Source: Flavobacteriaceae bacterium
GTDB lineage: Bacteria > Bacteroidota > Bacteroidia > Flavobacteriales > Flavobacteriaceae
Assembly: GCA_027066745.1 (NCBI GenBank)
Contig: JAMONB010000297.1
Location: forward strand, 1 to 32,081
DNA: 32,081 nucleotides
Direction of reading: 5' to 3'
Shown here one piece after another: positions 6,769-32,081 of this stretch. A program made the position numbers and the translations under genes. The notes beneath the pieces were generated by a model. The model had not been told where the DNA came from, did no database searches, and saw only the letters and a list, made by a program, of their open reading frames with translations. Numbering within the stretch: position 1 is the stretch's first letter; every line of letters starts with the position of its first letter.

Positions 6769-8217
6769 ATGAGTAAATATACTGAAGACGACTTAAAAAA
6801 AGAACTCGAAACCAAAGAGTATGAATATGGTTTTTATACAGATATAGAAGCTGATAAGTTCCCAGTGGGATTAAATGAAAATGTTGTTAGGGCTATTTCT
6901 AAAAAGAAAAATGAACCTGAATGGATGACCAAATGGCGTTTAGAAGCTTTTAAAGTTTGGAAAACAATGACCGAGCCTGAATGGGCAAATGTAAACTACC
7001 CTAAACCTGATTTTCAAGGTATTTCTTATTATTCAGCACCAAAAAAAAAGCCTGAATTAGAGAGCTTAGACGAAGTTGATCCTGAATTATTAAAAACTTT
7101 TGAAAAACTGGGCATTTCTATCAATGAACAAAAACGTATGACTGGTGTGGCGATGGATATTGTTATCGATTCCGTTTCTGTAGCGACCACTTTTAAGAAA
7201 ACACTAGGTGAAAAAGGAATTATTTTTTGTCCCATTTCTGAAGCCATACAAGAACATCCTGAATTGGTAAAAAAATATCTAGGTACTATCGTGCCAACAA
7301 CTGATAATTTCTATGCTGCTTTAAATAGTGCTGTGTTTAGTGATGGCTCTTTTTGTTATATCCCTAAAGGTGTAAAATGCCCTATGGAATTGTCTACTTA
7401 TTTTAGAATTAATGAAGGAGGCACAGGTCAATTTGAACGCACGCTCGTTATTGCTGATAAAGGAAGTTATGTAAGTTATTTAGAAGGTTGTACTGCACCT
7501 GCCCGTGATGAAAATCAATTACATGCCGCAGTAGTTGAGTTAATTGCTTTAGATGATGCTGAAATTAAGTATTCAACCGTCCAAAACTGGTATCCTGGTG
7601 ATGCAGAAGGTAAAGGTGGTGTTTTTAATTTTGTAACTAAACGCGGTCTTTGCGAAACCAATGCAAAAATTTCTTGGACGCAAGTAGAAACAGGATCTGC
7701 TGTAACTTGGAAATACCCAAGCTGTATCTTAAAAGGTGATAATTCTGTTGGTGAATTTTATTCAATTGCCGTAACCAATAATTACCAACAAGCAGATACG
7801 GGTACCAAAATGATTCATCTAGGAAAAAACACTAAAAGCACCATTATTTCTAAAGGTGTTTCTGCTGGTAAGTCTCAAAACTCTTATCGAGGGTTGGTAC
7901 AAATTCACTCTAAAGCTAAAAATGCTCGTAATTTTTCACAATGTGATTCACTCTTAATGGGAGATCAATGTGGAGCACATACCTTCCCTTATATTGAAGT
8001 AAAAAATAAATCATCCCAAATTGAACATGAAGCCACAACATCTAAAATTGGCGAAGATCAATTATTCTATTGTAATCAACGTGGTATTGATACCGATAAA
8101 GCCATTGCCTTAATTGTAAATGGCTTCAGTAAAGAAGTGTTGAATAAATTACCTATGGAATTTGCAGTAGAAGCAAGGAAGTTATTAGAGATTAGCTTGG
8201 AAGGAAGTGTGGGGTAA
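6769..8217 (+). CDS. sufB: Fe-S cluster assembly protein SufB
   Basis: Track ORF starts at 6688, overlapping suf[23 protein letters not shown] starting at ATG 6769 is the typical N-terminus. Family sequence includes [21 protein letters not shown] and [21 protein letters not shown]. Confidence 0.95.
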
Positions 8218-8253
8218 TCCCTCTGCCTTTGGCATCTCCTTGAAGGGGAGAAA
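8217..8253. repeat. Intergenic GC-richer repeat-like element between sufB and the lactonase-like gene
   Basis: tccctctgcctttggcatctccttgaaggggag; clear composition change and hairpin-like halves (gcctttggc; ctccttgaaggggag). Only one copy in the window. Confidence 0.45.
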
Positions 8254-8300
8254 TAGTAAGCTGTTGGCTGTAACGTAAAAAATTAAAAACCTTAGTTATC

Positions 8301-9175
8301 ATGAAAAAAATTATTTTATTACTTAGTCTTGGATTAACTATATTTTCTTGTAAAGACCTAAAAAAGGAGTTAAAGATGGTTATGCAGATGTAAAAAAAGA
8401 AGATTCAATTCCAAAAATCACCTTACATGTTTTTGATGGTGGTAAAATTGTAGTCAATAACCTCGAATTATTTTCTGAAGACACTACGTATCACGGACAA
8501 ACAAAAACCTTTGCTGATGCTTTTTATGTAATTCAACACCCTAAAGGTAATTTAATTTGGGATGCAGGTTTACCTGAAAATTTAGTTGGTTTACCTGAAC
8601 CATTTACTGATCCTAGTGGAGCTTTTACCGTTTCTAGAAAAGATTCTGTTCTAAATCAACTAAAAACAATTGGCTTAACACCAGAAGATTTTAAATACAT
8701 TGCCTTATCACATTCGCATTTTGATCATGTGGGGCATGCAAATCACTTTAAAAATGCCACATGGTTAGTGCAAGAAAATGAATATGATTTTTTCACCAAT
8801 GATTCTGCTCAAGTAAAACAAGCTGATATTTACGGAATGATTAAAGACCTAAAAAATATACAAAAACTACATGGTGAATATGATGTTTTTGGAGATAGTA
8901 CTGTAGTAATAAAACCTATGCCTGGACACACTATTGGGCATCAAGTATTGTATTTAAATATAGGACTTGAAAAACCGCTTTTATTAACAGGAGACCTCTA
9001 TCATTTTGAGGAAAACCGCACACATAGAAGATGTCCGATTTTTAATTATAATATTCCTCAGACCAAACAAAGCATGGAGGTTTTTGAAAATCTAGCTACA
9101 GCTAATAATGCAACTGTTATTATACAACATTCACAAAAAGATTTTGATAAACTCAAACAACTATTAAAAAATTAA
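8301..9175 (+). pseudogene. Metallo-beta-lactamase-fold (lactonase-like) lipoprotein with a single -1 frameshift at an A6 tract
   Basis: Frame 1 from 8301: MKKIILLLSLGLTIFSCKDLKKELKMVMQM*. Moving to the -1 frame at 8360-8366 gives ...KKGVKDGYADVKKEDSIPKITLHVFDGGKIVVNNLELFSEDTTYHGQTKTFADAFYVIQHPKGNLIWDAGLPENL... continuous with the track ORF 8729-9175, containing HxHxDH (SHSHFDHVGH) and PGHTIGHQ/TGDLYH. The track ORF start at 8729 is internal. Confidence 0.85.
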
Positions 9176-9192
9176 AAGATTTAAAATTGAAG

Positions 9193-9930
9193 ATGCTAGA
9201 AATAAAAAACTTACATGCCAATATTGGTGATAAAGAAATCCTTAAGGGAATAAATTTAACTATAAAAGCAGGAGAGGTACATGCTATTATGGGACCAAAT
9301 GGGTCTGGTAAAAGTACCTTATCAGCTGTTATTGCTGGAAAAGAAGAATATGAAGTAACAGAGGGTAACGTTTTCTTAGAAAAAGAAAACTTAGACGGGT
9401 TAACTCCTGAAGAAAGAGCCCATAAAGGTATCTTCCTGTCTTTTCAATATCCAATTGAGATTCCTGGAGTATCTGTTACTAATTTCATTAAAACGGCTAT
9501 TAATGAAACTAGAAAAGCAAATGGAAAGGAAGAACTTCCTGCTAAGGACATGCTAAAAAAGATAAGAGAAACAGCAGAACTTCTAGAAATTGACAGAAAA
9601 TTTCTTTCTCGCTCCTTAAATGAAGGCTTTTCTGGTGGAGAGAAGAAACGAAATGAAATCTTTCAAATGGCTATGTTAGAGCCTAAATTAGCTATTCTTG
9701 ATGAGACAGATTCTGGATTAGATATTGATGCTTTAAAAGTAGTAGCCAACGGTGTAAATAAACTAAAAAGTAAAGACAATGCCGTAATTGTTATTACGCA
9801 TTACCAACGCCTACTAGACTATATTGTGCCTGATTTTGTACATGTTTTACATAATGGTAAAATTGTAAAATCAGGCGGTAAGGAATTGGCTCATGAGTTG
9901 GAGGAAAAAGGGTATGATTGGCTAAAATAG
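9193..9930 (+). CDS. sufC: Fe-S cluster assembly ATPase SufC
   Basis: ABC ATPase MLEIKNLHANIGDKEILKGINL, GPNGSGKST, FSGGEKKRNEI, LDETDSGLDIDALK. The track start at 9187 is TTG; ATG at 9193 is more likely. Confidence 0.95.
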   Translation: MLEIKNLHANIGDKEILKGINLTIKAGEVHAIMGPNGSGKSTLSAVIAGKEEYEVTEGNVFLEKENLDGLTPEERAHKGIFLSFQYPIEIPGVSVTNFIKTAINETRKANGKEELPAKDMLKKIRETAELLEIDRKFLSRSLNEGFSGGEKKRNEIFQMAMLEPKLAILDETDSGLDIDALKVVANGVNKLKSKDNAVIVITHYQRLLDYIVPDFVHVLHNGKIVKSGGKELAHELEEKGYDWLK

Positions 9931-10040
9931 TATTCAGTTGGCAGTGTTCAGTAAACAATAGATTTTAACGAAGTTTAGAACTCAAAATAGTATTTGAACT
10001 TGTCATTCAGAACGAAGTGAAGAATCTCATGACTTTTAAT
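9931..10040. repeat. Composite intergenic repeat region between sufC and sufD
   Basis: CAGTTGGCAGTGTTCAGT, shared with 22069-22091 (CAGTTGGCAGTATTCAGTTGGCAGT), followed by TGTCATTCAGAACGAAGTGAAGAATCTCATGAC, an element type common between genes in Bacteroidota. Confidence 0.55.
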
Positions 10041-10075
10041 TAAAGCAACCTTATAAAAGAGAACACAAAACAACA

Positions 10076-11398
10076 ATGGATTTAAAAGAAAAATTAGTAA
10101 CATCATTTTTAGCTTTTGAAAATAAAGTAAGTACAGATACCGAAACCAATATTCATAATATTCGGTCTAATGCATTTATACATTTTGAGGAAAATGGCTT
10201 CCCTACAAAAAAGGATGAAGAATGGAAATATACCTCGTTAAAACCAGTGTTAAAACACAATTATACTCTTTTTCCAAATTCAGAAAATTCCATTGAATTT
10301 AAGGATGTCAAGAAATATTTCTTGCATGAAATAGACTCTTATAAGGTTGTATTTATTGATGGCATATATAGCTCATTTTTATCTGAAACTACGCATGATG
10401 ATTTTGATATTTGCCTGATGTCTTCTGCATTAAAAAAACCAAAATATAAAATGGTAATCGATCATTATTTTAATAAAATCACCTCTAAAAAAGATAGTAT
10501 TACTTCGCTAAATACTGCTTTTTCTAATGAAGGTGCTTATATTAACATTCCAAAAAATATTGTATTACCTAAACCTATTCAAATACTTCATTTTTCAACA
10601 GGTAATGAAGCTAAAATTATGCTACAGCCTCGTAACTTAATCATTGTTGGTGAAAACTCTCATGCTCGGATTATTGAACGTCATCAAAGTCTAACTGAAA
10701 ACACAGTGCTGACCAATTCGGTTACTGAAATTTTTGCAGGCAAACGAGCAATTATAGATTATTATAAAATTCAAAATGATAAAAAAACAGCTTCATTAAT
10801 TGACAACACTTATGTACAACAACAACAGCAAAGTGTAGCTTCTGTTAACACTTTTTCTTTTGGAGGAAACTTTACGCGTAATAATTTAGAATTCCATCAA
10901 GAAGGTGAGCATATCAACTCTAATCTTAACGGAATTACCATCATTGGCAATAAACAATTGGTTGATAACCATACATTGGTAAATCATAACTATCCAAATT
11001 GCGAAAGTCATGAACTCTATAAAGGTATTTATGCTGATAAAGCTACAGGCGTATTTAATGGAAAAGTTATCGTTAAACAAGCTGCTCAAAAAACAAATGC
11101 TTTTCAGCAAAACAACAATATTTTAATTGATGATGGAGCAACTATCAATGCCAAACCTCAACTCGAAATTTTTGCCGATGATGTAAAATGTTCGCATGGC
11201 TGTACTATCGGACAACTAGATGACAATGCCTTATTTTACTTACGCTCAAGAGGAATCCCTAAAAAAGAAGCTGAAGCCCTATTACTTTATGCTTTTGCAA
11301 ATGATGCCTTAGATAAGATTAAAATTCCTGAATTAAAAACAAGAATCACAAAACTTATTGCTAAAAAATTAGGTGTTGAATTGGGATTTGAGTTGTAA
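10076..11398 (+). CDS. sufD: Fe-S cluster assembly protein SufD
   Basis: 440 aa with KKDEEWKYTSLKPV and DDVKCSHGCTIGQLDDNALFYLRSRGIPKKEAEALLLYAFA; downstream of sufC. Confidence 0.95.
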   Translation: MDLKEKLVTSFLAFENKVSTDTETNIHNIRSNAFIHFEENGFPTKKDEEWKYTSLKPVLKHNYTLFPNSENSIEFKDVKKYFLHEIDSYKVVFIDGIYSSFLSETTHDDFDICLMSSALKKPKYKMVIDHYFNKITSKKDSITSLNTAFSNEGAYINIPKNIVLPKPIQILHFSTGNEAKIMLQPRNLIIVGENSHARIIERHQSLTENTVLTNSVTEIFAGKRAIIDYYKIQNDKKTASLIDNTYVQQQQQSVASVNTFSFGGNFTRNNLEFHQEGEHINSNLNGITIIGNKQLVDNHTLVNHNYPNCESHELYKGIYADKATGVFNGKVIVKQAAQKTNAFQQNNNILIDDGATINAKPQLEIFADDVKCSHGCTIGQLDDNALFYLRSRGIPKKEAEALLLYAFANDALDKIKIPELKTRITKLIAKKLGVELGFEL

Positions 11399-12144: not shown

Positions 12145-13482
12145 TTACTCAACACTTTCTGTAATCTCTTTTAAAAATAAATTAAAATCAAAGCCTGCTC
12201 CTCCTACCAATCCCATTCTTACAATTACTAAATCTTTTGAAGGAATAATAAACACTCGTTGTCCCTGAAAACCATTGGCTGAAAAAATATCTTTGGGAGC
12301 ATCTGGATACTTTCCTCCTGCATTCAACCAAAAATGACCTCCATATACACCTTTAGAAGTTTCGGTTGGTGTCTTTACATAATCAACCCAAGATTCGTCA
12401 AAAAGCTGTTCACCATTCCAATTGCCTTTGTGTAAATATAATAAACCAAACTTAGCCCAATCTCGTGTGGTTGCCCATGAATAAGAAGAACCCACATAAT
12501 TACCTGCTAAATCTGCTTCAACAAGCATAGAATGCATACCAATTTTATCAATTAATGCACTGTACCAAAAGTCTAAATAATCTTGATGTGAATCGAAATA
12601 CTTTCTAAGTAATCCTGATAATAAATTACTCGTACCAGATGAGTAATTCCAACTTTCATTAGGTTTACCTACTTGCTTTTTTTCTTCTTGTACTTTTGAC
12701 ATATCTTCTGCTAAAAATAACATTTTGGTCACATCAGAAATACCTTTATATACCTCTTCCCAAGCCAAACCACTATTCATATGTAACAGATCATTTATAG
12801 TTATGTTTGCTCTTTCATCGTCTTTCCAAGAAGCAATTCCTGTTTTATCATTGATTTTTAACTTGCCTTGTTTTTGTAATATTCCATATATCGTTGCTGT
12901 TACACTTTTGGTCATTGACCACCCTTGTAACAATGAGTTTTTATCAAAACCAGCAGCATATTTTTCAGCTAGTATTTGATCCTTATAAATAACTAAAACT
13001 GCTCTCGTTTTTTTCACCTCATTATTTGAAAAAGCATCAGTAACTACATTTTCTAATACCTTATAATCTACCGAGGTAAAAACTGTGTCTTTTTGAGAGT
13101 TATCACCATAAGGGTACGGAAGGTCTATCTTATTTCTTGTCCTTTTCGGAACTAGATAAGGTTTGTTTTCATCATAACCTTTGGTTAGTAAAACACTACC
13201 TAAACCTTCACGATAAACAGCTTTACGCTGCATCAATCCAAAGGCCGAGGCTACTATTGCTTTTTCACCTTCATTTACCTCTATTGTTGCTTGATTTATA
13301 GGTGCAAAATTATTATCTTCATTACTTGTTTTTTCAACTGATCTTTTAGCTAAAAAAACAGAAGAGCTCATATTCTTTGCAGCATATCCGGAAATGATGT
13401 TTAGTTTTGGATAGTTAGTATAAACTACATAAATAAGAATTAACACAAGGGCTAAGGCTATTATTTTTAGAATTTTTTTCAT
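12145..13482 (-). CDS. Serine hydrolase, beta-lactamase (class C)-like family
   Basis: SxxK motif in GWSMTKSVTATIYGIL; LLHMNSGLAWEE; WNYSSGTSNLLSGLL; SANGFQGQRVFIIPSKDLVIVRMG. Confidence 0.9.
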   Translation of the reverse strand: MKKILKIIALALVLILIYVVYTNYPKLNIISGYAAKNMSSSVFLAKRSVEKTSNEDNNFAPINQATIEVNEGEKAIVASAFGLMQRKAVYREGLGSVLLTKGYDENKPYLVPKRTRNKIDLPYPYGDNSQKDTVFTSVDYKVLENVVTDAFSNNEVKKTRAVLVIYKDQILAEKYAAGFDKNSLLQGWSMTKSVTATIYGILQKQGKLKINDKTGIASWKDDERANITINDLLHMNSGLAWEEVYKGISDVTKMLFLAEDMSKVQEEKKQVGKPNESWNYSSGTSNLLSGLLRKYFDSHQDYLDFWYSALIDKIGMHSMLVEADLAGNYVGSSYSWATTRDWAKFGLLYLHKGNWNGEQLFDESWVDYVKTPTETSKGVYGGHFWLNAGGKYPDAPKDIFSANGFQGQRVFIIPSKDLVIVRMGLVGGAGFDFNLFLKEITESVE

Positions 13483-20922: not shown

Positions 20923-20957
20923 AAAAGTCCTTCCCTCTGGGAAGGGTTGGGATGGGA
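20923..20957 (+). repeat. Dispersed intergenic repeat, family 1
   Basis: aaaagtccttccctctgggaagggttgggatggga; abuts the permease start codon. Confidence 0.75.
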
Positions 20958-22063
20958 TGAAACGATTTATAGGATTTATAAAAAAAGAATTTTACCATAT
21001 TTTTAGAGATAGACGCTCTTTGTTTATTCTCTTTGGAATGCCTATTGCTCAAATTATGCTTTTTGGCTTTGCCATAACCAATGAAATCAACAATGTTGAT
21101 ATTGCTATTCTAGACAAATCTAAAGATGCGACTACAAAAGAAATAGTCAACAAAATTTCTTCATCAAAATACTTTAGTAATCGTGAAGCTATTGAAAATG
21201 AAGCCGAAATAGCCTCAGTTTTTAAAAAAGGAAAAATAAAAGCTATACTCATTTTTGAGAATGATTTTAATAAAAAACTAATTAAGGAACAAAGGGCAAC
21301 TATTCAAATTATTACAGATGCCACTGACCCTAATACAGCAAATACCATCAGTAATTTTATCAATTCCATTTTACAAAAATATCAGCAAGAAATTAATAAA
21401 GACATTAAAATTGTCTATCAAATTATTCCGCAAACACAAATGGCTTATAATGCTGAATTAAAAAGTGTCTTTATGTTTGTCCCTGGTGTAATGACTATTA
21501 TTTTAATGTTAGTTTCTGCCATGATGACTTCTATTTCTATCACCAAAGAAAAAGAATTAGGTACTATGGAAATCTTATTGGTATCACCAATAAGACCTTT
21601 TCAAGTAATCATTGGTAAAGTGTTTCCATATATATTTTTATCAGTAATCAATGCTATTGTCATTATTGTACTGAGTATTTTCATCTTTAAAATGCCCGTT
21701 CGCGGAAGTCTCTTTTTATTAGGAGCAGAAAGTATTCTATTTATTATCAACGCTCTTTCCTTAGGAATTCTAATTTCAACCATTTCAGAAACACAACAAA
21801 CAGCTATGATGATTTCTTTAATGGGTTTAATGTTGCCTGTAATTTTATTGTCAGGGTTTATTTTCCCCATTGCAAGCATGCCTTTACCATTACAGGTTAT
21901 TAGTAATGTAATTCCTGCAAAGTGGTTTATTATTATATTAAAAGGCATCATGCTTAAAGGTATAGGGATTACGTTAGTATGGAAAGAAACACTAATTCTA
22001 TTGGGAATGACCGTGTTTTTTATAGCATTGAGTATTAAAAAATATAAAATTAGGTTGGAATAA
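20957..22063 (+). CDS. ABC-2 type permease (YbhS/YbhR-like)
   Basis: MKRFIGFIKKEFYHIFRDRRSLFILFGMPIAQIMLFGFAI; SITKEKELGTMEILLVSPIRPFQVIIGK. Confidence 0.93.
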   Translation: MKRFIGFIKKEFYHIFRDRRSLFILFGMPIAQIMLFGFAITNEINNVDIAILDKSKDATTKEIVNKISSSKYFSNREAIENEAEIASVFKKGKIKAILIFENDFNKKLIKEQRATIQIITDATDPNTANTISNFINSILQKYQQEINKDIKIVYQIIPQTQMAYNAELKSVFMFVPGVMTIILMLVSAMMTSISITKEKELGTMEILLVSPIRPFQVIIGKVFPYIFLSVINAIVIIVLSIFIFKMPVRGSLFLLGAESILFIINALSLGILISTISETQQTAMMISLMGLMLPVILLSGFIFPIASMPLPLQVISNVIPAKWFIIILKGIMLKGIGITLVWKETLILLGMTVFFIALSIKKYKIRLE

Positions 22064-22065
22064 AA

Positions 22066-22137
22066 ATCAGTTGGCAGTATTCAGTTGGCAGTAAAACAGT
22101 ATAAAAAAATTAGTGATAATTAGTGAAATTCGTGTCT
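22066..22137. repeat. Composite intergenic repeat region between the two ABC permease genes
   Basis: tcagttggcagtattcagttggcagtaaaacag, then aattagtgataattagtgaaattcgtgtct; the first part is shared with 9931-9955 and is itself internally duplicated. Confidence 0.6.
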
Positions 22138-23259
22138 ATGAAGATAATAGGATATATCATTCAAAAAGAGTTCAAGCAAATTTTTAGGAATAAAGCAATG
22201 CTTCCACTCATCTTTGTATTGCCTTTAATTCAACTTATCATTCTTTCGAATGCAGCTACATTTGAAGTTAAAAACATCAAGTTCTCTTATATAGATCATG
22301 ATAAAACTTCTTTTTCAAGAGCTTTGATTGATAAGTTTGATGCATCAACGTATTTTAATGTTACTACTGACTTTTCTTCAAGTAAAATGGCAAATGCAGC
22401 GATGTTAAAAGGAGAAGTTGATGTTGTTTTAGAAATTCCTCAATACTTTGAACGTAATTTATTAAAAGAAAAAAAGACAGATCTCTCTATAACAATAAAT
22501 GCTATTGACGGTGCTGCTGCTGGTGTTGAAAATGTATATATCAATCAAATTGTACAAAGCTTTAATAAAAAGGCTCTAGTAACTTTAATACAGCCCTCAG
22601 ACCTAAAAAATAGGCAAAAAAACATCCTAAGTATTCCTTCTTTTTGGTACAATAAAACATTGAATTACAAAACGTTTATGGTGCCAGGTATTTTAGTTTT
22701 ATTGGTGACTATGATTACCTTATTCTTATCTGGAATGAATATCGTTCGTGAAAAAGAAATTGGCACATTAGAACAAATGAATGTTACACCTATAAAAAAA
22801 CACCAGTTTATTATAGGTAAATTATTTCCTTTTTGGGTAATAGGACTGATGCTTTTAACAATAGGGTTAATTATTGCAAGAATAATATTTAATGTACCCA
22901 TGGTAGGTAACATATTTTTAATGTATTTCTATACCTCTGTTTATATTTTGGTCATTTTAGGTATGGGCTTGTTTATTTCTAATTTTACAGACACTCAACA
23001 GCAAGCCATGTTTATTGCTTGGTTTTTTGTAGTAATTTTTATTTTAATGAGCGGACTCTTTACTCCTATTGAGAGTATGCCAAAATGGGCACAATTTCTA
23101 ACCGAATTTAACCCTATAAAATTCTATGTAGAAGTCATGCGAATGGTTATGTTAAAAGGCTCTAACTTAACTGATATTTTACCTCAATTTGGAAAAACTC
23201 TTTTATATGCAGTCGTTATGAATGGCTTGGCAGTGTGGAGTTATAAAAAAGTAAGTTAA
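22138..23259 (+). CDS. ABC-2 type permease (YbhS/YbhR-like)
   Basis: ATG 22138: MKIIGYIIQKEFKQIFRNKAMLPLIFVLPLIQL; NIVREKEIGTLEQMNVTPIKKHQFIIGK. The track start (GTG 22123) lies in the repeat. Confidence 0.93.
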   Translation: MKIIGYIIQKEFKQIFRNKAMLPLIFVLPLIQLIILSNAATFEVKNIKFSYIDHDKTSFSRALIDKFDASTYFNVTTDFSSSKMANAAMLKGEVDVVLEIPQYFERNLLKEKKTDLSITINAIDGAAAGVENVYINQIVQSFNKKALVTLIQPSDLKNRQKNILSIPSFWYNKTLNYKTFMVPGILVLLVTMITLFLSGMNIVREKEIGTLEQMNVTPIKKHQFIIGKLFPFWVIGLMLLTIGLIIARIIFNVPMVGNIFLMYFYTSVYILVILGMGLFISNFTDTQQQAMFIAWFFVVIFILMSGLFTPIESMPKWAQFLTEFNPIKFYVEVMRMVMLKGSNLTDILPQFGKTLLYAVVMNGLAVWSYKKVS

Positions 23260-23296
23260 TAAAATATTGACTTACTAAAAATATTTAATAATATTA

Positions 23297-23755
23297 ATGA
23301 TAAATCAAATGAAACACATCTTAAAATCAATACTACTAATAGCGTTATTTCTAGTGTCTTTTAACCATTTAAATGCTCAAGAAGCTTATTCTTTAAAAGT
23401 AAATGTGAAAAATTTACGAAACTCTAAAGGGGTTGTTCAATTTGCTATATATAACAAAGAAGGCTCTATTCCTGATGAAAAATACAAAAAATATTATAGA
23501 AAGGGTATTGCTATCATTAATAATAATACTGCAACCCTAACTTTCAAAAACTTACCAAAAGGAAAATATGCTGTAAATATTTTACATGACGAAAATAAAA
23601 ATGGTAAAATTGATAAACGCTTTGTTTTACCAAAAGAAGGGATTGGTTTTTCAAATTATAAATCTATCGGATTAACAAATCGCCCTAAATTTTCTAAAGC
23701 AAGTTTTGATATAAGTACAAATACCACGAAAACAATAACTATTATTTACATGTAA
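23297..23755 (+). CDS. DUF2141-family secreted protein
   Basis: Signal peptide; LKVNVKNLRNSKGVVQFAIYNKEGSIPDEKY...LPKGKYAVNILHDENKNGKIDKRFVLPKEGIGFSN. ATG at 23309 is an alternative start. Confidence 0.88.
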   Translation: MINQMKHILKSILLIALFLVSFNHLNAQEAYSLKVNVKNLRNSKGVVQFAIYNKEGSIPDEKYKKYYRKGIAIINNNTATLTFKNLPKGKYAVNILHDENKNGKIDKRFVLPKEGIGFSNYKSIGLTNRPKFSKASFDISTNTTKTITIIYM

Positions 23756-23757
23756 GT

Positions 23758-24654
23758 ATGAATAAGTTTTTTTACACTTTATGCCTAACTACTATTATTT
23801 TTAGCTATGGATATACTCAAGAAAGTAATGACAGTATTTCAAAGCTAGATATATCAAAAATAGCTTTAGCTAATCAAACTGACAGCTATGTTACTTTTCC
23901 AACAGATATTGGTAATATTGCTCCTTTAATGTTTGAAGGAAATATTAGTCCTAGTTTTATTATAAGAGAACGGAAAGATTCAAGGTTAATGGCTGCTCTT
24001 ACTTCTCAAATAATTATTAGAATGTATAATGAAGAGTCTTATCCTGTACGTACACCAAGTTATATACCCCAAGTTTCTTTTTATTATACATTAGGCAACA
24101 AAAAATCAAAAAAACACAACACGCTTTTTGGGAGAATTGCACATCATTCTAATGGTCAAGATGGAGATTTTTATGATGAAAACGGACATATTAATTTACA
24201 ATCAGGAAACTTTGCTACAAATTTTTTTGAGATAGGTATTATAAAAACATCTCAGAGTACTACATTAAATGCTATTAAGTTCTTTAAAAGTTCTATAGAA
24301 ATTCACCCTAGAAGTTGGATGTTAGAAGAATTACATGGTCAATATAGTGGTCTTAGATGGCACAATACATTTACCGCGTTTAAACTGCCTTTTATCAATT
24401 CTGGTAAAAATAACAATCCTAATTTTTCTTTAAAGGTAGAAACATCTTTAATGCTTGATAATTACAATAACTTAAACACTTTTGATTTAGACCGCTTAAA
24501 TGCAAGTTTAACTCTTTATTATCATCCAAAATTTTTGGAAGACATTGGCTTATTTGTTCAATTTTATCATGGTATGGATTATTATAATATATATTTTCAA
24601 GAAAAATTAGATGTTATCCGATTTGGAATTATGACTGAAATACTACGATTTTAA
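23758..24654 (+). CDS. Outer-membrane phospholipase A (PldA/OMPLA)-like protein
   Basis: HxSNGxxG active-site motif in GRIAHHSNGQDGDFYDENG; beta-barrel-like alternation; aromatic C-terminus (EILRF). Confidence 0.8.
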   Translation: MNKFFYTLCLTTIIFSYGYTQESNDSISKLDISKIALANQTDSYVTFPTDIGNIAPLMFEGNISPSFIIRERKDSRLMAALTSQIIIRMYNEESYPVRTPSYIPQVSFYYTLGNKKSKKHNTLFGRIAHHSNGQDGDFYDENGHINLQSGNFATNFFEIGIIKTSQSTTLNAIKFFKSSIEIHPRSWMLEELHGQYSGLRWHNTFTAFKLPFINSGKNNNPNFSLKVETSLMLDNYNNLNTFDLDRLNASLTLYYHPKFLEDIGLFVQFYHGMDYYNIYFQEKLDVIRFGIMTEILRF

Positions 24655-24743
24655 GCCCAAATACTATTGTTGTAATTAACAAAAGATTACGATTAATTTT
24701 TGCCATTTGTAGCTGTTCTAATATATTATTTTAATTTTTTATT

Positions 24744-26576
24744 ATGCTTTACCCAAAAAATAAATTACAAGAAATAGCAGTTTCAATTGATTTGATAATT
24801 GCTGAGATTTCTAAATTTGAGCATAAGTATCAACAACAAATAGATAATGTACACCCTAATTATACTAAAAGTGCTAAGAATTTAGTTCATTATTTAGCCT
24901 TACGGTCATTTAATATTGATGCTTTACAAAAAAGAATAGACGAAATTGGTTTACCAAATTCACCCGAATTTAAAGGCAGTATTTTGTATAGAATACTAAG
25001 TTTTAAAACCATTATTAATAGTTTATTGAAGATTGATTCTTCAGATGATAAAAAAATATTTCTCACTAATAAAGAAGCTAAAAAAATCTTAATAGAAAAT
25101 TTTGTAGCTATTTTTGGTAAGGTAAAAAGGAAAAGAAAAACTGCCATTATGGTTACTCAACCATTAGATGCGGCAAAAGATAAACAATTTGCAAAATCGC
25201 TCTTAGAACTGGGAATGGACTGTGCAAGGATTAATTGTGCACATGATGATGAAATTATTTGGGATAAGATAATTAATAATATTAAGGCGAACAGAAATAG
25301 CTGTAAAATTATGATGGATTTAGGCGGTCCCAAACTAAGGACAGGTAAAATGAAACCTGGTCATAAAGTAATACACATAAAGCCTAAAAGAAATGACCTG
25401 GGTAAAGTAATAGCTCCCGCAAAAATTTGGATTGCACCCTACGGTACTCAACCCAAAAAAGGTGAAGAGGCCGATGCCTTCATTCCGATAAACAAAAAGT
25501 GGCTTCAAAAAACACAAAAAGGCTCCTATATCGCTTTTAAAGATTCACGAGGTAAAAAGCGTAAAATTCATATAGATAGAAAAGAGAACAATGGCCGTTG
25601 GGGCACTTGTAAAAAATCGGCTTTTATTACTGCTGGAACATTGCTAAATGTATTTTTCAAAAAAAAATCAGCCTCTGAAAAACATATTGCTGATAAGTTA
25701 TTACCATTAGAAGAAATTATCTTTTTGACTAAGGGAGATTTATTGAGGCTTGATAAAGAGCCTATTTTAGGAGAACCTGCCGTCTATAGTCAAGAAGGTA
25801 ATATTACTGAAATAGCTCATATTTCCTGCACTTTACCCAAGGTTTTTAATATGGTTAATGAAAAAGAACTAATTTATTTTGATGATGGTAAAATTGAAGG
25901 AACCATCAAAGAAGTTCAATCAGAATATTTAATTATAGAAATTACAGAGACCAAAAGTAAAGGAGGTAAATTAAAAGCCGATAAAGGAATAAATTTACCC
26001 AAAAGTAAATTGAATTTTGACGAATTGACCGATAAAGATAAAAAGGACTTAAAATTTGTTGTAAAAAATGCTGACGTAGTTAATTTTTCATTTATCAATA
26101 ATAAACAAGATGTTGAAAATTTACTCAATGAATTAAAAAAGTTAAATGCTAAGATTGGTATTATTTTAAAAATTGAAACACAAGAAGCCTATAAAAATCT
26201 ACCTAGTATTATATTAAAAGCCATGGAAAATTACCCTGTTGGTGTTATGATAGCTCGAGGTGATTTAGCGATAGAAACTGGGTGGGAAAATTTCGCCGTT
26301 ATCCAAGAAGAAATACTACAGCTTTGTGAAGCTGCCCATTTACCAGATATTTGGGCAACTCAGGTTTTAGAAAATCTGGCAAAAAAAGGCATTCCGACAA
26401 GGGCAGAAATTACTGACGCAGCTATGGCACAAAGAGCAGAATGTGTCATGCTAAACAAAGGGCAATACATAAAAAAAGCTGTTAAAATATTGGATAAAAT
26501 ACTGTGTAAAATGCAGCAAGTTCAAAAGAAAAAAGAAACCCTATTGCCTAAATTGAAATTTAATGAAGCTCTATAA
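24744..26576 (+). CDS. Divergent pyruvate kinase-like protein with N-terminal helical extension and no C-terminal allosteric domain
   Basis: IMMDLGGPKLRTGKM; IGIILKIETQEAYKN; PVGVMIARGDLAIETGWE; IWATQVLENLAKKGIPTRAEITDAAMAQRAECVMLNKGQYI; N-terminal SAKNLVHYLALRSFNIDALQKRIDEIGL. Confidence 0.88.
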   Translation: MLYPKNKLQEIAVSIDLIIAEISKFEHKYQQQIDNVHPNYTKSAKNLVHYLALRSFNIDALQKRIDEIGLPNSPEFKGSILYRILSFKTIINSLLKIDSSDDKKIFLTNKEAKKILIENFVAIFGKVKRKRKTAIMVTQPLDAAKDKQFAKSLLELGMDCARINCAHDDEIIWDKIINNIKANRNSCKIMMDLGGPKLRTGKMKPGHKVIHIKPKRNDLGKVIAPAKIWIAPYGTQPKKGEEADAFIPINKKWLQKTQKGSYIAFKDSRGKKRKIHIDRKENNGRWGTCKKSAFITAGTLLNVFFKKKSASEKHIADKLLPLEEIIFLTKGDLLRLDKEPILGEPAVYSQEGNITEIAHISCTLPKVFNMVNEKELIYFDDGKIEGTIKEVQSEYLIIEITETKSKGGKLKADKGINLPKSKLNFDELTDKDKKDLKFVVKNADVVNFSFINNKQDVENLLNELKKLNAKIGIILKIETQEAYKNLPSIILKAMENYPVGVMIARGDLAIETGWENFAVIQEEILQLCEAAHLPDIWATQVLENLAKKGIPTRAEITDAAMAQRAECVMLNKGQYIKKAVKILDKILCKMQQVQKKKETLLPKLKFNEAL

Positions 26577-26606
26577 AATAAATACTCTTATTGATTAATT
26601 ATAATT

Positions 26607-27191
26607 ATGGAAAAAGATAAACATACAAATGCTAAAACCAAGTCAAAAAAAGGAAAGCAAGATAAATACGATTCTCGGGGAGTTCAAACATTGTTTAGAA
26701 CACTTTCCCGAAATCATTATAACCTGTTAAAAATGATTGATAATAAAGCAAGAATAGTGCTTACCGTTAACTCTATAATAACTTCGCTCTTATTAGGTAT
26801 CTTATTTTTAGCACCCAAAACTCAGGGGTTTAAAATTGAACTTGGTATCAGAATATTGATTATTTGTAGTATGCTCTCAATGGTTTTTGCCTTATTTAGT
26901 ATGCTTCCACATCGTTATTTTGGCAAAGCTTTTAAAAAAAGTGATTATAAAGGAGTTTTGTATGCCGAAAATTTTTCTTCATTATCCCTAGAAGAATTCA
27001 AAGCTGAATTCAAACGTATTATGGAAAAAGGGCAAACCATCTATGAAGAAATGATAAACGATCTTTACTTTTTGGGTCTGACCATAGCTCGAAAACAAAA
27101 AATCTTACTCCTTTCAGTAGCCATTTTTTTAGTTGGTCTGGTAACGGCAATAATCTATTCATTAGTAAACGGACTCATACCCTTTACATAA
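26607..27191 (+). CDS. DUF5706/Pycsar-effector-like membrane protein
   Basis: RTLSRNHYNLLKMIDNKARIVLTVNSIITSLLLGILF, a second TM pair, and a C-terminal TM; resembles the ADxKAxxLLxxNxxIxS pattern of DUF5706 proteins. Confidence 0.65.
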   Translation: MEKDKHTNAKTKSKKGKQDKYDSRGVQTLFRTLSRNHYNLLKMIDNKARIVLTVNSIITSLLLGILFLAPKTQGFKIELGIRILIICSMLSMVFALFSMLPHRYFGKAFKKSDYKGVLYAENFSSLSLEEFKAEFKRIMEKGQTIYEEMINDLYFLGLTIARKQKILLLSVAIFLVGLVTAIIYSLVNGLIPFT

Positions 27192-27411
27192 ATGCTAAAA
27201 ATTAGCTTTAAAGTTAATAATTTGGATGACTTAAATACTTTTAATCTCAATCGATTAAATACAAAACTTACTTTACCATCATCCAAATTTTTTAGAAGCT
27301 ATCGGGTTCTTTGTACAATTCTATCATGCCTTACATTATTATAATATTTATTTTCAAGAAAATTTAGATATTACTCGATTAGGAATTACGACAGAAATAT
27401 TAAAATTTTAA
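27192..27411 (+). pseudogene. Frameshifted C-terminal remnant of a second phospholipase A-like gene, paralogous to 23758-24654
   Basis: Translation SFKV..NNLDDLNTFNLNRLNTKLTL then, after a frame change, YHHPNFLEAIGFFVQFYHALHYYNIYFQENLDITRLGITTEILKF*, versus intact NNLNTFDLDRLNASLTLYYHPKFLEDIGLFVQFYHGMDYYNIYFQEKLDVIRFGIMTEILRF*. Confidence 0.9.
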
Positions 27412-27422
27412 AACATAACAAC

Positions 27423-28271
27423 ATGAATGATACTAGTATTTTTATTAAAAAAGCTTCGGGTGAATTAGAACTATTTTCATTTCGAAAGCTAAAAAAATCA
27501 CTTGAAAGGAGTGGAGCATCTGAGGCCATAATTCACTCTATTATAAAAACACTAAGCCCCCAACTTTATGATGGAATTTCCTCTAAAGAGGTTTACAAAA
27601 AAGCCTTTCGTTTATTAAAGAAATCTAATCGTGCCTGTGCTTCAAAATACAGTTTAAAAAGGGCAATTTTTGACTTAGGTCCAACGGGTTATCCTTTTGA
27701 ACGTTTAGTTGGTGCAATATTAAAACAAAAGGGTTATAAAACACAAGTCAGTGTACTTTTACAAGGTCAGTGTGTCACCCATGAAATTGATGTATTGGCA
27801 GAAAAAGAGGGAAACACTTTTACTATAGAGTGTAAGTTTCATTCAAATATTAAAACAGTAAGCAATGTGAAAATTCCTTTGTATATAAATTCTAGATTTT
27901 TAGATGTTCAAAAAAAATGGAATGACAACCCTGATAAAACATCCTTTTTAAAACAAGGATGGATTATAACTAATACTCGATTTACTGAGGATGCTATCCA
28001 TTACGGAAAATGTGCGGGTTTGATTTTATTAAGTTGGAATTATCCAAAAAATAATGGTATTAGTGACAATATAGATCACTATGGGCTTTATCCTATTACA
28101 GCACTAACTTCTCTTACAAAAAATGAAAAAAAACTTCTCATAGAAAATGATATCATTTTAACTCAAGAACTCTTATTGGTTGCTCATAAACTTAAAAAAC
28201 TTCATTTTTCAACAACTAAAATTGAAAAAGTAATTGCTGAAGCTCAAAAATTATGTAATTCATTTTTGTAG
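27423..28271 (+). CDS. ATP-cone domain + Mrr-like (PD-(D/E)XK) restriction endonuclease-like protein
   Basis: N-terminal ATP-cone: FIKKASGELELFSFRKLKKSLERSGAS...IIHSIIKTLSPQLYDGISSKEVYKKAFRLLKK; nuclease core GYPFERLVGAILKQKGYKTQ...HEIDVLAEKEGNTFTIECKFH. Confidence 0.85.
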   Translation: MNDTSIFIKKASGELELFSFRKLKKSLERSGASEAIIHSIIKTLSPQLYDGISSKEVYKKAFRLLKKSNRACASKYSLKRAIFDLGPTGYPFERLVGAILKQKGYKTQVSVLLQGQCVTHEIDVLAEKEGNTFTIECKFHSNIKTVSNVKIPLYINSRFLDVQKKWNDNPDKTSFLKQGWIITNTRFTEDAIHYGKCAGLILLSWNYPKNNGISDNIDHYGLYPITALTSLTKNEKKLLIENDIILTQELLLVAHKLKKLHFSTTKIEKVIAEAQKLCNSFL

Positions 28272-28299
28272 TTTTGTATTTAGCACCGATAATTGTCGG
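28269..28299 (+). promoter_or_regulatory. Candidate sufS promoter -7 element (TAGTTTTG) and palindrome CCGATAATTGTCGG
   Basis: TAnnTTTG at 28269-28276; 14-bp near-palindrome at 28286-28299 (6 of 7 pairs), 20 bp upstream of the sufS ATG. Confidence 0.35.
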
Positions 28300-28318
28300 C
28301 AGATTCTAAAAAAGAAAC

Positions 28319-29533
28319 ATGTTTGATCTCAAAAAAATAAGAGCCAATTTCCCTATTCTACAACGAGAAGTAAATGGCAAACCTTTAATCTATTTTGACA
28401 ATGCTGCTACTTCACAAACACCTCAAGTAGTTATTGATGCAATTGTTGATTATTATTCAAGTTATAATGCGAACATTCATCGTGGGGTACATACCTTAAG
28501 TCAAGAAGCAACCGATGCTTACGAACAAGCACGTTTGAAAATTCAACAGCATTTTAATGCAAAAAAAGTACACGAAATTATTTTTACTTCAGGCACAACT
28601 CATGGCATTAATTTGGTAGCAACTGGCTTTACGTCTTTATTAAAAAAGGACGATGAAATTATCGTTTCTCTATTAGAGCATCATTCAAACATTGTGCCTT
28701 GGCAAATGCTTTGTGAGCGTACAGGAGCAAAATTGAAAGTAATTCCTATCAATCAAAAAGGAGAATTGTTACTTGATGAATATGATAAATTGCTCTCAAC
28801 TAAAACAAAATTGGTTTTTGTAAATCATGTATCCAATGCCTTAGGCACCATAAACCCTATTAAAGAAATTATAACTAAAGCTCACAACGTAGGTGCTGCT
28901 GTATTAATTGATGGTGCTCAGGCAGCACCACATATTAAAGCAGATGTACAAGCGTTAGATGCCGATTTTTATGTAGTTTCTGCTCATAAAATGTGTGGAC
29001 CAACAGGTGTAGGTATCTTGTACGGAAAAGAAGAATGGCTCAACAAACTCCCTCCTTATCAAGGTGGAGGTGAAATGATAAAAGAAGTGACTTTTGAAAA
29101 AACTACCTATGCCGATTTACCACATAAATTTGAAGCAGGTACACCAAATATTTGTGGTGGTATTGCTTTTGGTGTTGCTTTAGATTATCTAAACGCTATC
29201 GGATTTGATACCATTGCTGCTTACGAAAAGGAACTGTTAGACTTTGCCACACAGCAATTATTGACCATTGATGGAGTGAAAATTTATGGTACTTCAACGC
29301 AAAAAACAGCGGTACTCTCTTTTAATATTGAAGGGTTACATCCGTATGATATCGGTACAATCATAGACAAACTAGGCATTGCAGTACGTACTGGGCACCA
29401 TTGTACTCAACCCATTATGGATTTCTATAACATTCCAGGTACCATACGTGCTTCTTTTTCTTTTTACAATACCAAAGATGAAATTATAACATTTGTTAAA
29501 GCCGTAGAACGGGCTAAAAATATGTTGTTGTAG
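28319..29533 (+). CDS. sufS: Cysteine desulfurase SufS
   Basis: MFDLKKIRANFPILQREVNGKPLIYFDNAATSQTP; LLEHHSNIVPWQ; SAHKMCGPTGVGILYG; RTGHHCTQP. Confidence 0.95.
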   Translation: MFDLKKIRANFPILQREVNGKPLIYFDNAATSQTPQVVIDAIVDYYSSYNANIHRGVHTLSQEATDAYEQARLKIQQHFNAKKVHEIIFTSGTTHGINLVATGFTSLLKKDDEIIVSLLEHHSNIVPWQMLCERTGAKLKVIPINQKGELLLDEYDKLLSTKTKLVFVNHVSNALGTINPIKEIITKAHNVGAAVLIDGAQAAPHIKADVQALDADFYVVSAHKMCGPTGVGILYGKEEWLNKLPPYQGGGEMIKEVTFEKTTYADLPHKFEAGTPNICGGIAFGVALDYLNAIGFDTIAAYEKELLDFATQQLLTIDGVKIYGTSTQKTAVLSFNIEGLHPYDIGTIIDKLGIAVRTGHHCTQPIMDFYNIPGTIRASFSFYNTKDEIITFVKAVERAKNMLL

Positions 29534-29721
29534 GTTAATAGAAGACAAAATACCCCGCACTTTTAGATACAAAATACACGACTTTTTAAAAAAATCACCA
29601 ACCCCTTTTTTTGTTTTTATATTTTTTTCGTACATTACCAAACGTAGGAGACCTTATTACAGGAAGTTATAAGAGAAAATTTTATCGGCAATAAACCCAA
29701 TTTGCTTACATTCATTTTTTG

Positions 29722-30006
29722 AATGGTAAGTAGAGATACCCTTTTAGAGTTGACGAAGATTGTGGCGAATGGATTTGGACAGAACGCACACGTCATGTAA
29801 CAGTTAATTACCCTAGTGATGGCTTTCTACCCCAATACACTCAAGAACTTGATGTTGTTGCAGGTAATAGATATCATATTATTGGTGCTAACCACTTAGA
29901 GGTAGGTGATATGAGTGCTGGAACTGTAGATGAAACAGCTGTTGAGTTTCGAAAAATTTTTGAAAGAACAGAAGGTGATTTTTTTAGAACAGACGAAAGA
30001 AATTAA
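29722..30006 (+). pseudogene. C-terminal fragment of an unidentified protein (possible toxin/hydrolase tip)
   Basis: Open without a start: RYPFRVDEDCGEWIWTERTRHVTVNYPSDGFLPQYTQELDVVAGNRYHIIGANHLEVGDMSAGTVDETAVEFRKIFERTEGDFFRTDERN*; an in-frame TAG lies immediately upstream and a TAA further up. Confidence 0.7.
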
Positions 30007-30009
30007 AAA

Positions 30010-31269
30010 ATGAAAAATATCCTAATCTTTTTAATACCAATCATCATCCTTACTACTTCTTGTACCAAGGATGATGATACTGCCACTACGCAAACTGATG
30101 AAAATGGTGTAATTACATTATTACCGCATCAATGGAAAAAAACATTGCATGCTGACGGTGCTGTTTCAAACGGACATATTGATTATCCCATTTATTATAA
30201 GGATAATATTGTTATCCCTACCACAAATGGGAAGGATAATAAATTTTTAACCTTGATAAATTCAAATGATGGAGAAACAATTTGGCAATGGAATGATAGT
30301 TATTTACCCTATTCTAGTCAAATCAAAATTTCATACCCTTATCAATACAACAATTTATTAACTTACCAAAAAGGAAGTAAAAGTTATTGTGTTAATTTAG
30401 ATAATGGCACTACACATTGGAAAATACGTAGAGAATCTTCTTTTGATGTTAGAATATATCCAAGTTTTGATAATAATTTTTTTAATTTGGTAGACATCAT
30501 TGATAATAATGGTTATAAAGAACAAACTGCTACAAAAACTGAAATAAATACTGGTAATTTAACTACAGAAGTAATTAGATCCAATTATTCTGGAGAATAT
30601 ATAAACCCTGATAATTTAATTGGAGCAATTACTAATATTATAAAAACACCTAGCAATAGTAATCTTTACGCAATCACTTATGTTGAACCTTCTCCTGGCT
30701 GGGTTGTAAACTCCTATTTAGGCTTATATAATTCAGATACTCAACAATGGGTTTATGAACGTAAATTAATGGCTCCACCAACTGTAAATAGTAGTACTTA
30801 TGAACCAAAGATTTATAACAACAAATTATATGCTTGGGTCGGTAAGAATTTAGTTTGTCATGATTTAGATACTGGAGAGCAATTATGGATAAAGCAATTT
30901 ACACAAGACTTTTTATTTTCAGGTTTTATCATAGAAGATGATAAAATAATTGCCAATAATGAAGACACATATACCTATGCACTAAACCCTAATACTGGTA
31001 GTCAAATTTGGAAAACAAAAACAGCAGGTACTAGTAGTAGAATGAGCTACCTAAATGGCATTGTTTATTTTGTAGGCGGCTCAACACGTAAACTACATGC
31101 TATTGATATCAATACAGGTAAACATGTTTGGAAAATAGACGGTCATAAACTAGATGGTGAAAATTTTAAAACCAATGCCGTTTATGTATTACCAGCTAAA
31201 AATGGTGAAAAAGCTAAAGTTATAGCCTTAACACATTTAAATGCTTATTGTTTTGAGGCATATCAATAA
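30010..31269 (+). CDS. PQQ-like beta-propeller repeat lipoprotein (copy 1)
   Basis: Lipobox LTTSCTKDDD; repeats DGETIWQWNDS, NGTTHWKIRRES, DTGEQLWIKQF, NTGSQIWKTKTAG, NTGKHVWKIDG. Confidence 0.88.
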   Translation: MKNILIFLIPIIILTTSCTKDDDTATTQTDENGVITLLPHQWKKTLHADGAVSNGHIDYPIYYKDNIVIPTTNGKDNKFLTLINSNDGETIWQWNDSYLPYSSQIKISYPYQYNNLLTYQKGSKSYCVNLDNGTTHWKIRRESSFDVRIYPSFDNNFFNLVDIIDNNGYKEQTATKTEINTGNLTTEVIRSNYSGEYINPDNLIGAITNIIKTPSNSNLYAITYVEPSPGWVVNSYLGLYNSDTQQWVYERKLMAPPTVNSSTYEPKIYNNKLYAWVGKNLVCHDLDTGEQLWIKQFTQDFLFSGFIIEDDKIIANNEDTYTYALNPNTGSQIWKTKTAGTSSRMSYLNGIVYFVGGSTRKLHAIDINTGKHVWKIDGHKLDGENFKTNAVYVLPAKNGEKAKVIALTHLNAYCFEAYQ

Positions 31270-31276
31270 AAAAAAA

Positions 31277-31318
31277 TGAAAGAACAGAAGGTGATTTTTT
31301 TAGAACTGATAGAAGATA
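31277..31318 (+). repeat. Duplicated tail of the upstream fragment (ERTEGDFFRTDRR*)
   Basis: 30-bp perfect match tgaaagaacagaaggtgatttttttagaac to 29961-29990, followed by a related stop-terminated end, directly before copy 2. Confidence 0.9.
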
Positions 31319-31321
31319 ATT

Positions 31322-32081
31322 ATGAAAAATCTATTTATAATATTTCTATTCATCATCTTTACTACATCATGTAGTAAAGATGATGATGGTATAAGTAAAC
31401 AAACCGACAGTAATGGTGTTGTAATTTCATTACCTTACCAATGGAAAAAAACATTACATAAAAATGGAACGGCTTCTAATGGTACAATTAGGTTGCCTAT
31501 TTATTATAATAACAATATAGCTATTCCTACAACAGAAGGTAAGGATAAAAGGTTTTTAACTCTAATAAACACCAATGACGGGGAAACTTTATGGAAATGG
31601 AATGATAGTTATTTACCCTATTCTAGTCAAATCAAAATTTCATACCCTTATCAATACAACAATTTATTAACTTACCAAAGCGGAAGTAAAAGTTATTGTA
31701 TCAATTTAGATAATGGTGATACACATTGGAAAATTAAGAGAGATAACTCTTTTGATGTTAGAATTTATCCAAATATAAATGAAACGTTTTTTTATAGCAC
31801 TCCTATAATTAACGAAACAGGAACTGAAGAGTTTAGTATGTCAAAATGTAACATAAACGATGGTACTATTAGAGAATTTGTAAGAGCAAATTATTCAGGT
31901 GATTATATAAACCCAGATAATTTAATTGGAGCAATTACTAATATTATAAAAACACCTAGCAATAGTAATCTTTACGCAATCACTTATGTTGAACCTTCTC
32001 CTGGCTGGGTTGTAAACACATATTTTGGCTTATATAATTCAGATACTCAACAATGGGTTTATGAACGTAAATTGATGGCTT
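31322..32081 (+). CDS. PQQ-like beta-propeller repeat lipoprotein (copy 2), partial at the right edge
   Basis: Not in the ORF track because it is open to the edge: MKNLFIIFLFIIFTTSCSKDDDGISKQTDSNGVVISLPYQWKKTLHKNGTASNGTIRLPIYYNNNIAIPTTEGKDKRFLTLINTNDGETLWKWNDSYLPYSSQIKISYPYQYNN..., a clear paralog of copy 1. Confidence 0.9.
   Translation, partial: MKNLFIIFLFIIFTTSCSKDDDGISKQTDSNGVVISLPYQWKKTLHKNGTASNGTIRLPIYYNNNIAIPTTEGKDKRFLTLINTNDGETLWKWNDSYLPYSSQIKISYPYQYNNLLTYQSGSKSYCINLDNGDTHWKIKRDNSFDVRIYPNINETFFYSTPIINETGTEEFSMSKCNINDGTIREFVRANYSGDYINPDNLIGAITNIIKTPSNSNLYAITYVEPSPGWVVNTYFGLYNSDTQQWVYERKLMA

Follow-up and report, generated by a model that had tools for sequence, protein, structure and literature searches.

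Changes to gene clusters through duplication and loss (PMC7055797) and the formation of mosaic operons are known types of event. PldA proteins have been reported to carry an HxSNG motif (PMC5043575), and in Pycsar systems a PycC cyclase is combined with an effector such as PycTM. Here we set against these descriptions a gene cluster of a marine Flavobacteriaceae bacterium, contained in the window (the whole stretch of DNA that was analysed, 32,081 nucleotides), in which the decayed end of a second PldA-like gene (psiPLD) stands between PycTM and a nuclease gene. We regard this remnant as an ordinary yet unusually readable trace of bacterial gene-order change. It offers a concrete intermediate of such change in one cluster, for which relatives keep the ancestral order and one relative shares the derived order.

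Genes of the locus

The intact PldA-like gene (PLD; Table 1) encodes a protein that is like PldA/OMPLA in having the HxSNG motif. Its predicted structure is a 12-stranded barrel (mean pLDDT 69, moderate confidence), with Escherichia coli OMPLA (1fw3; TM 0.48/0.56) among the structural matches to the model, which include many barrels and none below E 0.001. The HHSNGQ sequence is invariant across 11 homologs and fits the HxSNG of PldA proteins (PMC5043575). The protein is unlike PldA/OMPLA in that it matches no Pfam model at threshold, PF02253 (PldA/OMPLA) included; that model is matched by 3 of the 11 homologs (best E 2.8e-5), and the PLD of the related locus L007, scored alone, reaches 19 bits, under the 27-bit cut-off. 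'PldA-like' is a fair name, with formal PldA/OMPLA membership not secured.

Table 1 Features of the rearranged cluster in the window
Feature	Position	Strand	Basis
DUF2141 gene, usual upstream neighbour of PLD (2 bp)	23297..23755	+	domain, spacing
PLD, intact gene for a PldA-like outer-membrane phospholipase A of 298 aa with an HHSNGQ motif	23758..24654	+	homologs, motif, predicted structure
Part of PLD that matches the remnant gaplessly (81% over 141 nt)	24514..24654	+	repeat search
PK, pyruvate-kinase-like gene, subfamily NF011314; solitary elsewhere, inserted here	24744..26576	+	domain and neighbourhood comparison
PycTM, two-TM protein of PF18967, standalone; in relatives it normally follows the nuclease	26607..27191	+	domain and locus comparison
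psiPLD, remnant of a second PldA-like gene: its decayed 3′ end, with about codons 225-298 and the stop	27189..27411	+	tblastn, DNA alignment, repeat search
Mrr, ATP-cone/Mrr_cat nuclease gene; 11 bp past the remnant, as past intact PLD in relatives	27423..28271	+	domains, spacing

PK encodes a 610-aa member of its pyruvate-kinase subfamily with a long N-terminal part, of a kind that is normally solitary (the window gene and L056-L060). A conserved functional pairing of PK with PycTM was considered and rejected: PK relatives of the same type are solitary, without PycTM, in the six neighbourhoods examined, and among 36 PycTM loci PK stands beside PycTM in L007 alone. The window resembles Pycsar in having a PF18967/PycTM-type two-TM protein. 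It is unlike Pycsar in that the neighbouring genes examined include no cyclase (no cyclase domain was found among the scanned genes of 20957-32080) and that the usual partner of PycTM here is the ATP-cone/Mrr nuclease. Throughout the Flavobacteriaceae, a standalone PycTM-type protein is conserved beside the ATP-cone/Mrr-type nuclease (window 26607-28271 and 23 related loci), no cyclase was seen nearby, and the two are a possible candidate defence pair. Most Flavobacteriaceae genomes searched also have a ~400-aa open frame, one part of which is 30-38% identical to PycTM (for example, G000:C351:8524-9057); this is a separate family that is easily mistaken for a standalone PycTM gene. Among the scanned genes and at the borders there was no integrase or transposase, tRNA or terminal repeat, the PLD repeat itself being the sole repeat.

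A decayed second PldA-like gene

Comparison of the intact PldA-like protein with the window by tblastn recovered, besides the gene itself, 27271-27408 (residues 253-298, 72% identity) and, in a different frame, 27183-27275 (residues 223-253, 45% identity), with an E of 1e-20 for the two segments taken jointly. At the nucleotide level, psiPLD is 74% identical to the intact gene over 220 positions, and the local alignment scores 231.8, compared with at most 102.5 across 1,000 dinucleotide shuffles. In an ungapped repeat search, 27271-27411 and the corresponding part of the intact gene (Table 1) are 141-nt direct repeats with a spacing of 2757, and they flank both PK and PycTM. Elsewhere in the genome there was one other match, weak (E 0.09) and on a different contig.

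Similarity to the intact gene begins at about 27189-27195, where it overlaps or abuts the stop codon of PycTM. The frame changes by a net −2 nt near 27255-27275, and the total length is 223 nt against about 224 nt for the matching part of the intact gene. With the last ~74 codons alone and a frameshift, psiPLD is unable to encode the full protein. At the level of sequence, these comparisons establish it as a dead, non-functional 3′ fragment of a second PldA-like gene; most likely it has no function of its own and is a scar of rearrangement.

A sequence-only reading of this DNA had described the last ~65 residues of a second PldA gene between the membrane gene (DUF5706-like there, PycTM here) and the nuclease gene, with one frame change of about 2 nt lost and a short internal deletion, and had noted that PK and the membrane gene are bracketed by PldA 3′ ends. 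The remnant, its frame change and the bracketing all hold, and the TBLASTN search that it proposed is the one that recovered the two segments above. The fragment proved longer, at about 74 codons, and the internal deletion is absent.

Gene order in relatives

A scan of 84,980 species genomes yielded 36 loci with PycTM relatives, to which further loci from related genomes were added. In about 25 of the relatives' loci, PLD lies directly before the ATP-cone/Mrr nuclease with neither PK nor PycTM between them. The order PLD-Mrr-PycTM is present in 23 loci, not all of them independent, some being near-identical (L020/L021/L023). The PLD-Mrr spacing is 10-18 bp in nearly all loci with the ancestral order; at L036 (6964-7145) the gap is 182 bp, with no PLD remnant inside. 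Upstream of PLD, relatives usually have ABC genes, a LOG-type gene and DUF2141.

The window has the order PLD-PK-PycTM-psiPLD-Mrr, with psiPLD placed where relatives have intact PLD and with both outer junctions at their usual spacing (DUF2141-PLD, 2 bp; psiPLD-Mrr, 11 bp). Because both outer junctions are native, the new material sits between two PLD ends, and psiPLD is the mark left by something coming between PLD and Mrr. Only PK is new to the locus; PycTM is normally there already, after the nuclease. The window order derives most simply from the common PLD-Mrr-PycTM. The earlier reading had predicted relatives with PLD directly upstream of the nuclease or with two intact PLD genes; the former are the loci counted above, and the latter were seen in none of the relatives examined. 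The relatives neither consistently carry the fragment in the same place with PK and the membrane gene missing to its left nor lack both of these arrangements, the two outcomes that it had named as contrary.

A probable shared junction with an Altibacter locus

In the collections searched, the order PLD-PK-PycTM-gap-Mrr occurs outside the window only at L007, a locus of an Altibacter metagenome-assembled genome (MAG); in the same-genus genome G015 the contig breaks off within PLD. Its 157-bp gap (8586-8742) aligns with the window remnant at a score of 76.7, the best of 2,000 dinucleotide shuffles reaching 75.0; in 12 other loci, the sequence that follows PycTM gave no match to the remnant. Scored against a PLD profile, the gap reaches 5.5 bits versus 1.2 bits for 2,000 simple shuffles; scored against single intact PLD genes, it is not above shuffles. 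In both the window and L007 the remnant match begins at the PycTM stop, and both gaps end before the nuclease with a similar TTAAAA..TAAAACA sequence. The L007 psiPLD is more decayed than that of the window. This is moderate evidence that the two loci may have inherited one common junction.

Between the window and L007, nucleotide identity is 85% for PK and 84% for PycTM (59% and 53% at 4-fold sites), compared with 66-70% (30-38% at 4-fold sites) for the backbone ABC genes, PLD and Mrr; identity steps up at the PK start codon and down at the PycTM stop. Since PK and PycTM are far more alike than their flanks, the block appears to have been exchanged more recently than its surroundings diverged, and because the elevated identity stops short of PLD, the recent exchange between the two lineages was not visibly through PLD. 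Another member of the window's genus has a PK that is 70% identical (27% at 4-fold sites). PycTM of the window groups with that of L007 and L004 in a single clade (SH-aLRT 97) that conflicts with the neighbouring genes, and the other genomes of the window's genus, several of which are incomplete, yielded none of this PycTM. Together, these comparisons support well a horizontal exchange of the PK-PycTM block. Carriage by plasmids or phages was rejected: neither the plasmid nor the phage collections yielded a close PycTM, and PLD was absent from the plasmids. Where the two remnants align, their summed identity is about 61%, near the 4-fold figure, a value that is suggestive of unconstrained decay since the exchange.

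In the window, psiPLD is 74.1% identical to the local PLD and 72.7% to that of L007. A short DNA tree places it beside the window PLD (89/88); a position beside the L007 PLD is not rejected (p-AU 0.23), and positions with L004/L014 or Aequorivita are disfavoured (p 0.03). The differences between psiPLD and the window PLD number 6/5/16 of 47 by codon position, so that the third position dominates, and its second-position change is above that of intact PLDs (0-4 vs the window PLD). Given this excess of third-position differences, psiPLD would either have died after the junction formed or have been refreshed by the intact gene through gene conversion.

Other rearranged loci

At L004 (Maribacter sp. 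ACAM166; 7431-10280 and 12716-12847) the order is ABCb-(TMx remnant)-DUF2141a-PycTM-LOG-TMx-DUF2141b-cytb-PLD-Mrr-(ABCb 3′ remnant), the last of these being the end of an ABC permease gene; the DNA of its two DUF2141 genes is 81.5% identical. This arrangement suggests a second, separate case of duplication and loss around a displaced PycTM, and that local duplication and loss are common here. A single ancient duplication behind the window, L007 and L004, all of which have PycTM before the nuclease, was rejected: the other genes of L004 are close to those of L014/L085/L086, where the order is the normal one and the PycTM is different, so L004 acquired its PycTM separately. A search for a PLD remnant after the L004 PycTM gave no signal, its score being reached by 1,745 of 2,000 shuffles.

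In Cerina litoralis (L033:7856-7972) a PLD 3′ remnant lies directly before PycTM and the nuclease is gone; in Gelidibacter pelagius (L015:7563-7996) a decayed PLD and a decayed nuclease precede PycTM. At these loci PLD and Mrr appear to have been lost repeatedly, with PycTM kept.

Origin of the derived order

The best explanation, to which we give a probability of about 0.5, is an ancestral event that made a second, 5′-truncated copy of PLD fused to the stop codon of PycTM, in a block that then passed between lineages. In its simplest form, this would be a tandem duplication that began at PLD codon ~225 and ended with the stop of PycTM; a shared TAAA may have helped. Such a duplication would directly yield a truncated PLD that abuts the PycTM stop and has native spacing to the second nuclease; because the truncated copy arises from the duplication itself, no separate PLD deletion is needed. 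The redundant copies (the first nuclease and the second PycTM) would have been lost afterwards, PK would have entered behind the intact PLD, and the PK-PycTM block, probably carrying the remnant along, would have passed between the window and Altibacter-like lineages. Duplication and loss would be expected to leave a second copy of a flanking gene where the order changes, native spacing at the outer junctions and relatives with the ancestral order; all three are found here. Against this explanation, the L007 remnant is barely above the best shuffle and matches intact PLDs weakly. The third-position excess also counts against it, as a strictly ancient dead copy should have decayed earlier unless gene conversion refreshed it. 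One shared duplication, moreover, cannot account for L004, whose nearest relatives have a different PycTM. No significant trace of the lost first nuclease lay in the PLD-PK interval or ahead of PycTM, and none of the lost second PycTM lay after the nuclease.

Native spacing at both outer junctions is equally well explained by a single crossover in the resident PLD, through which a foreign PLD-PK-PycTM segment, circular or with one homologous end, would have produced PLD-PK-PycTM-PLD-Mrr before the 5′ part of the second PLD was deleted. That PK-PycTM is shared horizontally agrees with such an insertion, as does the distance of the remnant from the window PLD, which is as great as that of PLDs from other genera and is expected if one copy came from outside. 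We nevertheless consider it a serious but somewhat less probable account, because it requires a further deletion that stopped exactly where PycTM ends, the plasmid and phage collections revealed no donor molecule, and the remnant groups with the window PLD, though its grouping with the L007 PLD is not rejected. Improbable, in our judgement, is the independent decay of an old resident PLD by ordinary deletion, with intact PLD, PK and PycTM as a later replacement and the L007 gap unrelated: PLD does decay repeatedly at this locus (remnants before PycTM in L033/L084; L015 with a decayed nuclease), but L007 shares the order and has a matching gap whose left edge is the same, and the DUF2141-PLD spacing of the intact copy is native as well. 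The source assembly is fragmented (448 contigs), yet we give almost no weight to an assembly error, the independent assembly of L007 having the identical gene order, or to chance similarity, which is refuted by a remnant score far beyond the shuffles.

The sequence-only reading had proposed that an old duplication or homologous recombination at PldA ends delivered or rearranged a cassette of PK and the membrane protein. This is partly supported: an old event, shared with L007, is indicated, and PK did arrive at the locus. Homologous recombination at the PldA ends is indistinguishable from tandem duplication with gene loss, and PycTM did not have to be delivered.

Discussion

The remnant says nothing new about the functions of PLD, PK and PycTM. 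If duplication and loss are the true cause, the locus would provide direct field evidence, at the scale of an operon, for models whose support has so far come largely from theory and from the early stages of duplication. Tentatively, and with more doubt than confidence, we suggest that the ABC-LOG-DUF2141-PLD-Mrr-PycTM locus repeatedly reorders by local duplication and loss, that PycTM has come to precede the nuclease on at least two occasions (window/L007 and L004) and that readable fossils were left behind; if so, the locus would offer duplication-loss models of gene order in bacteria a natural test case on a small scale.

Like the cases treated by duplication-loss models, namely the SNAP hypothesis (PMC7055797) and tandem duplication-random loss in animal mitochondria (for example, PMC5745709), the window has a partly duplicated gene, an altered order and a decayed copy between the rearranged genes. 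It is unlike them in involving few genes of one cluster, in that the other expected lost copies are untraced, and in the presence of the foreign gene PK. Compared with mosaic operons, in the 2003 account (Genome Biol 4:R55) as relayed by PMC4455057, the swap in the window differs in coming with a PLD fragment and a change of order; the likeness is that genes of one cluster have conflicting histories, PK-PycTM having been exchanged and their neighbours not.
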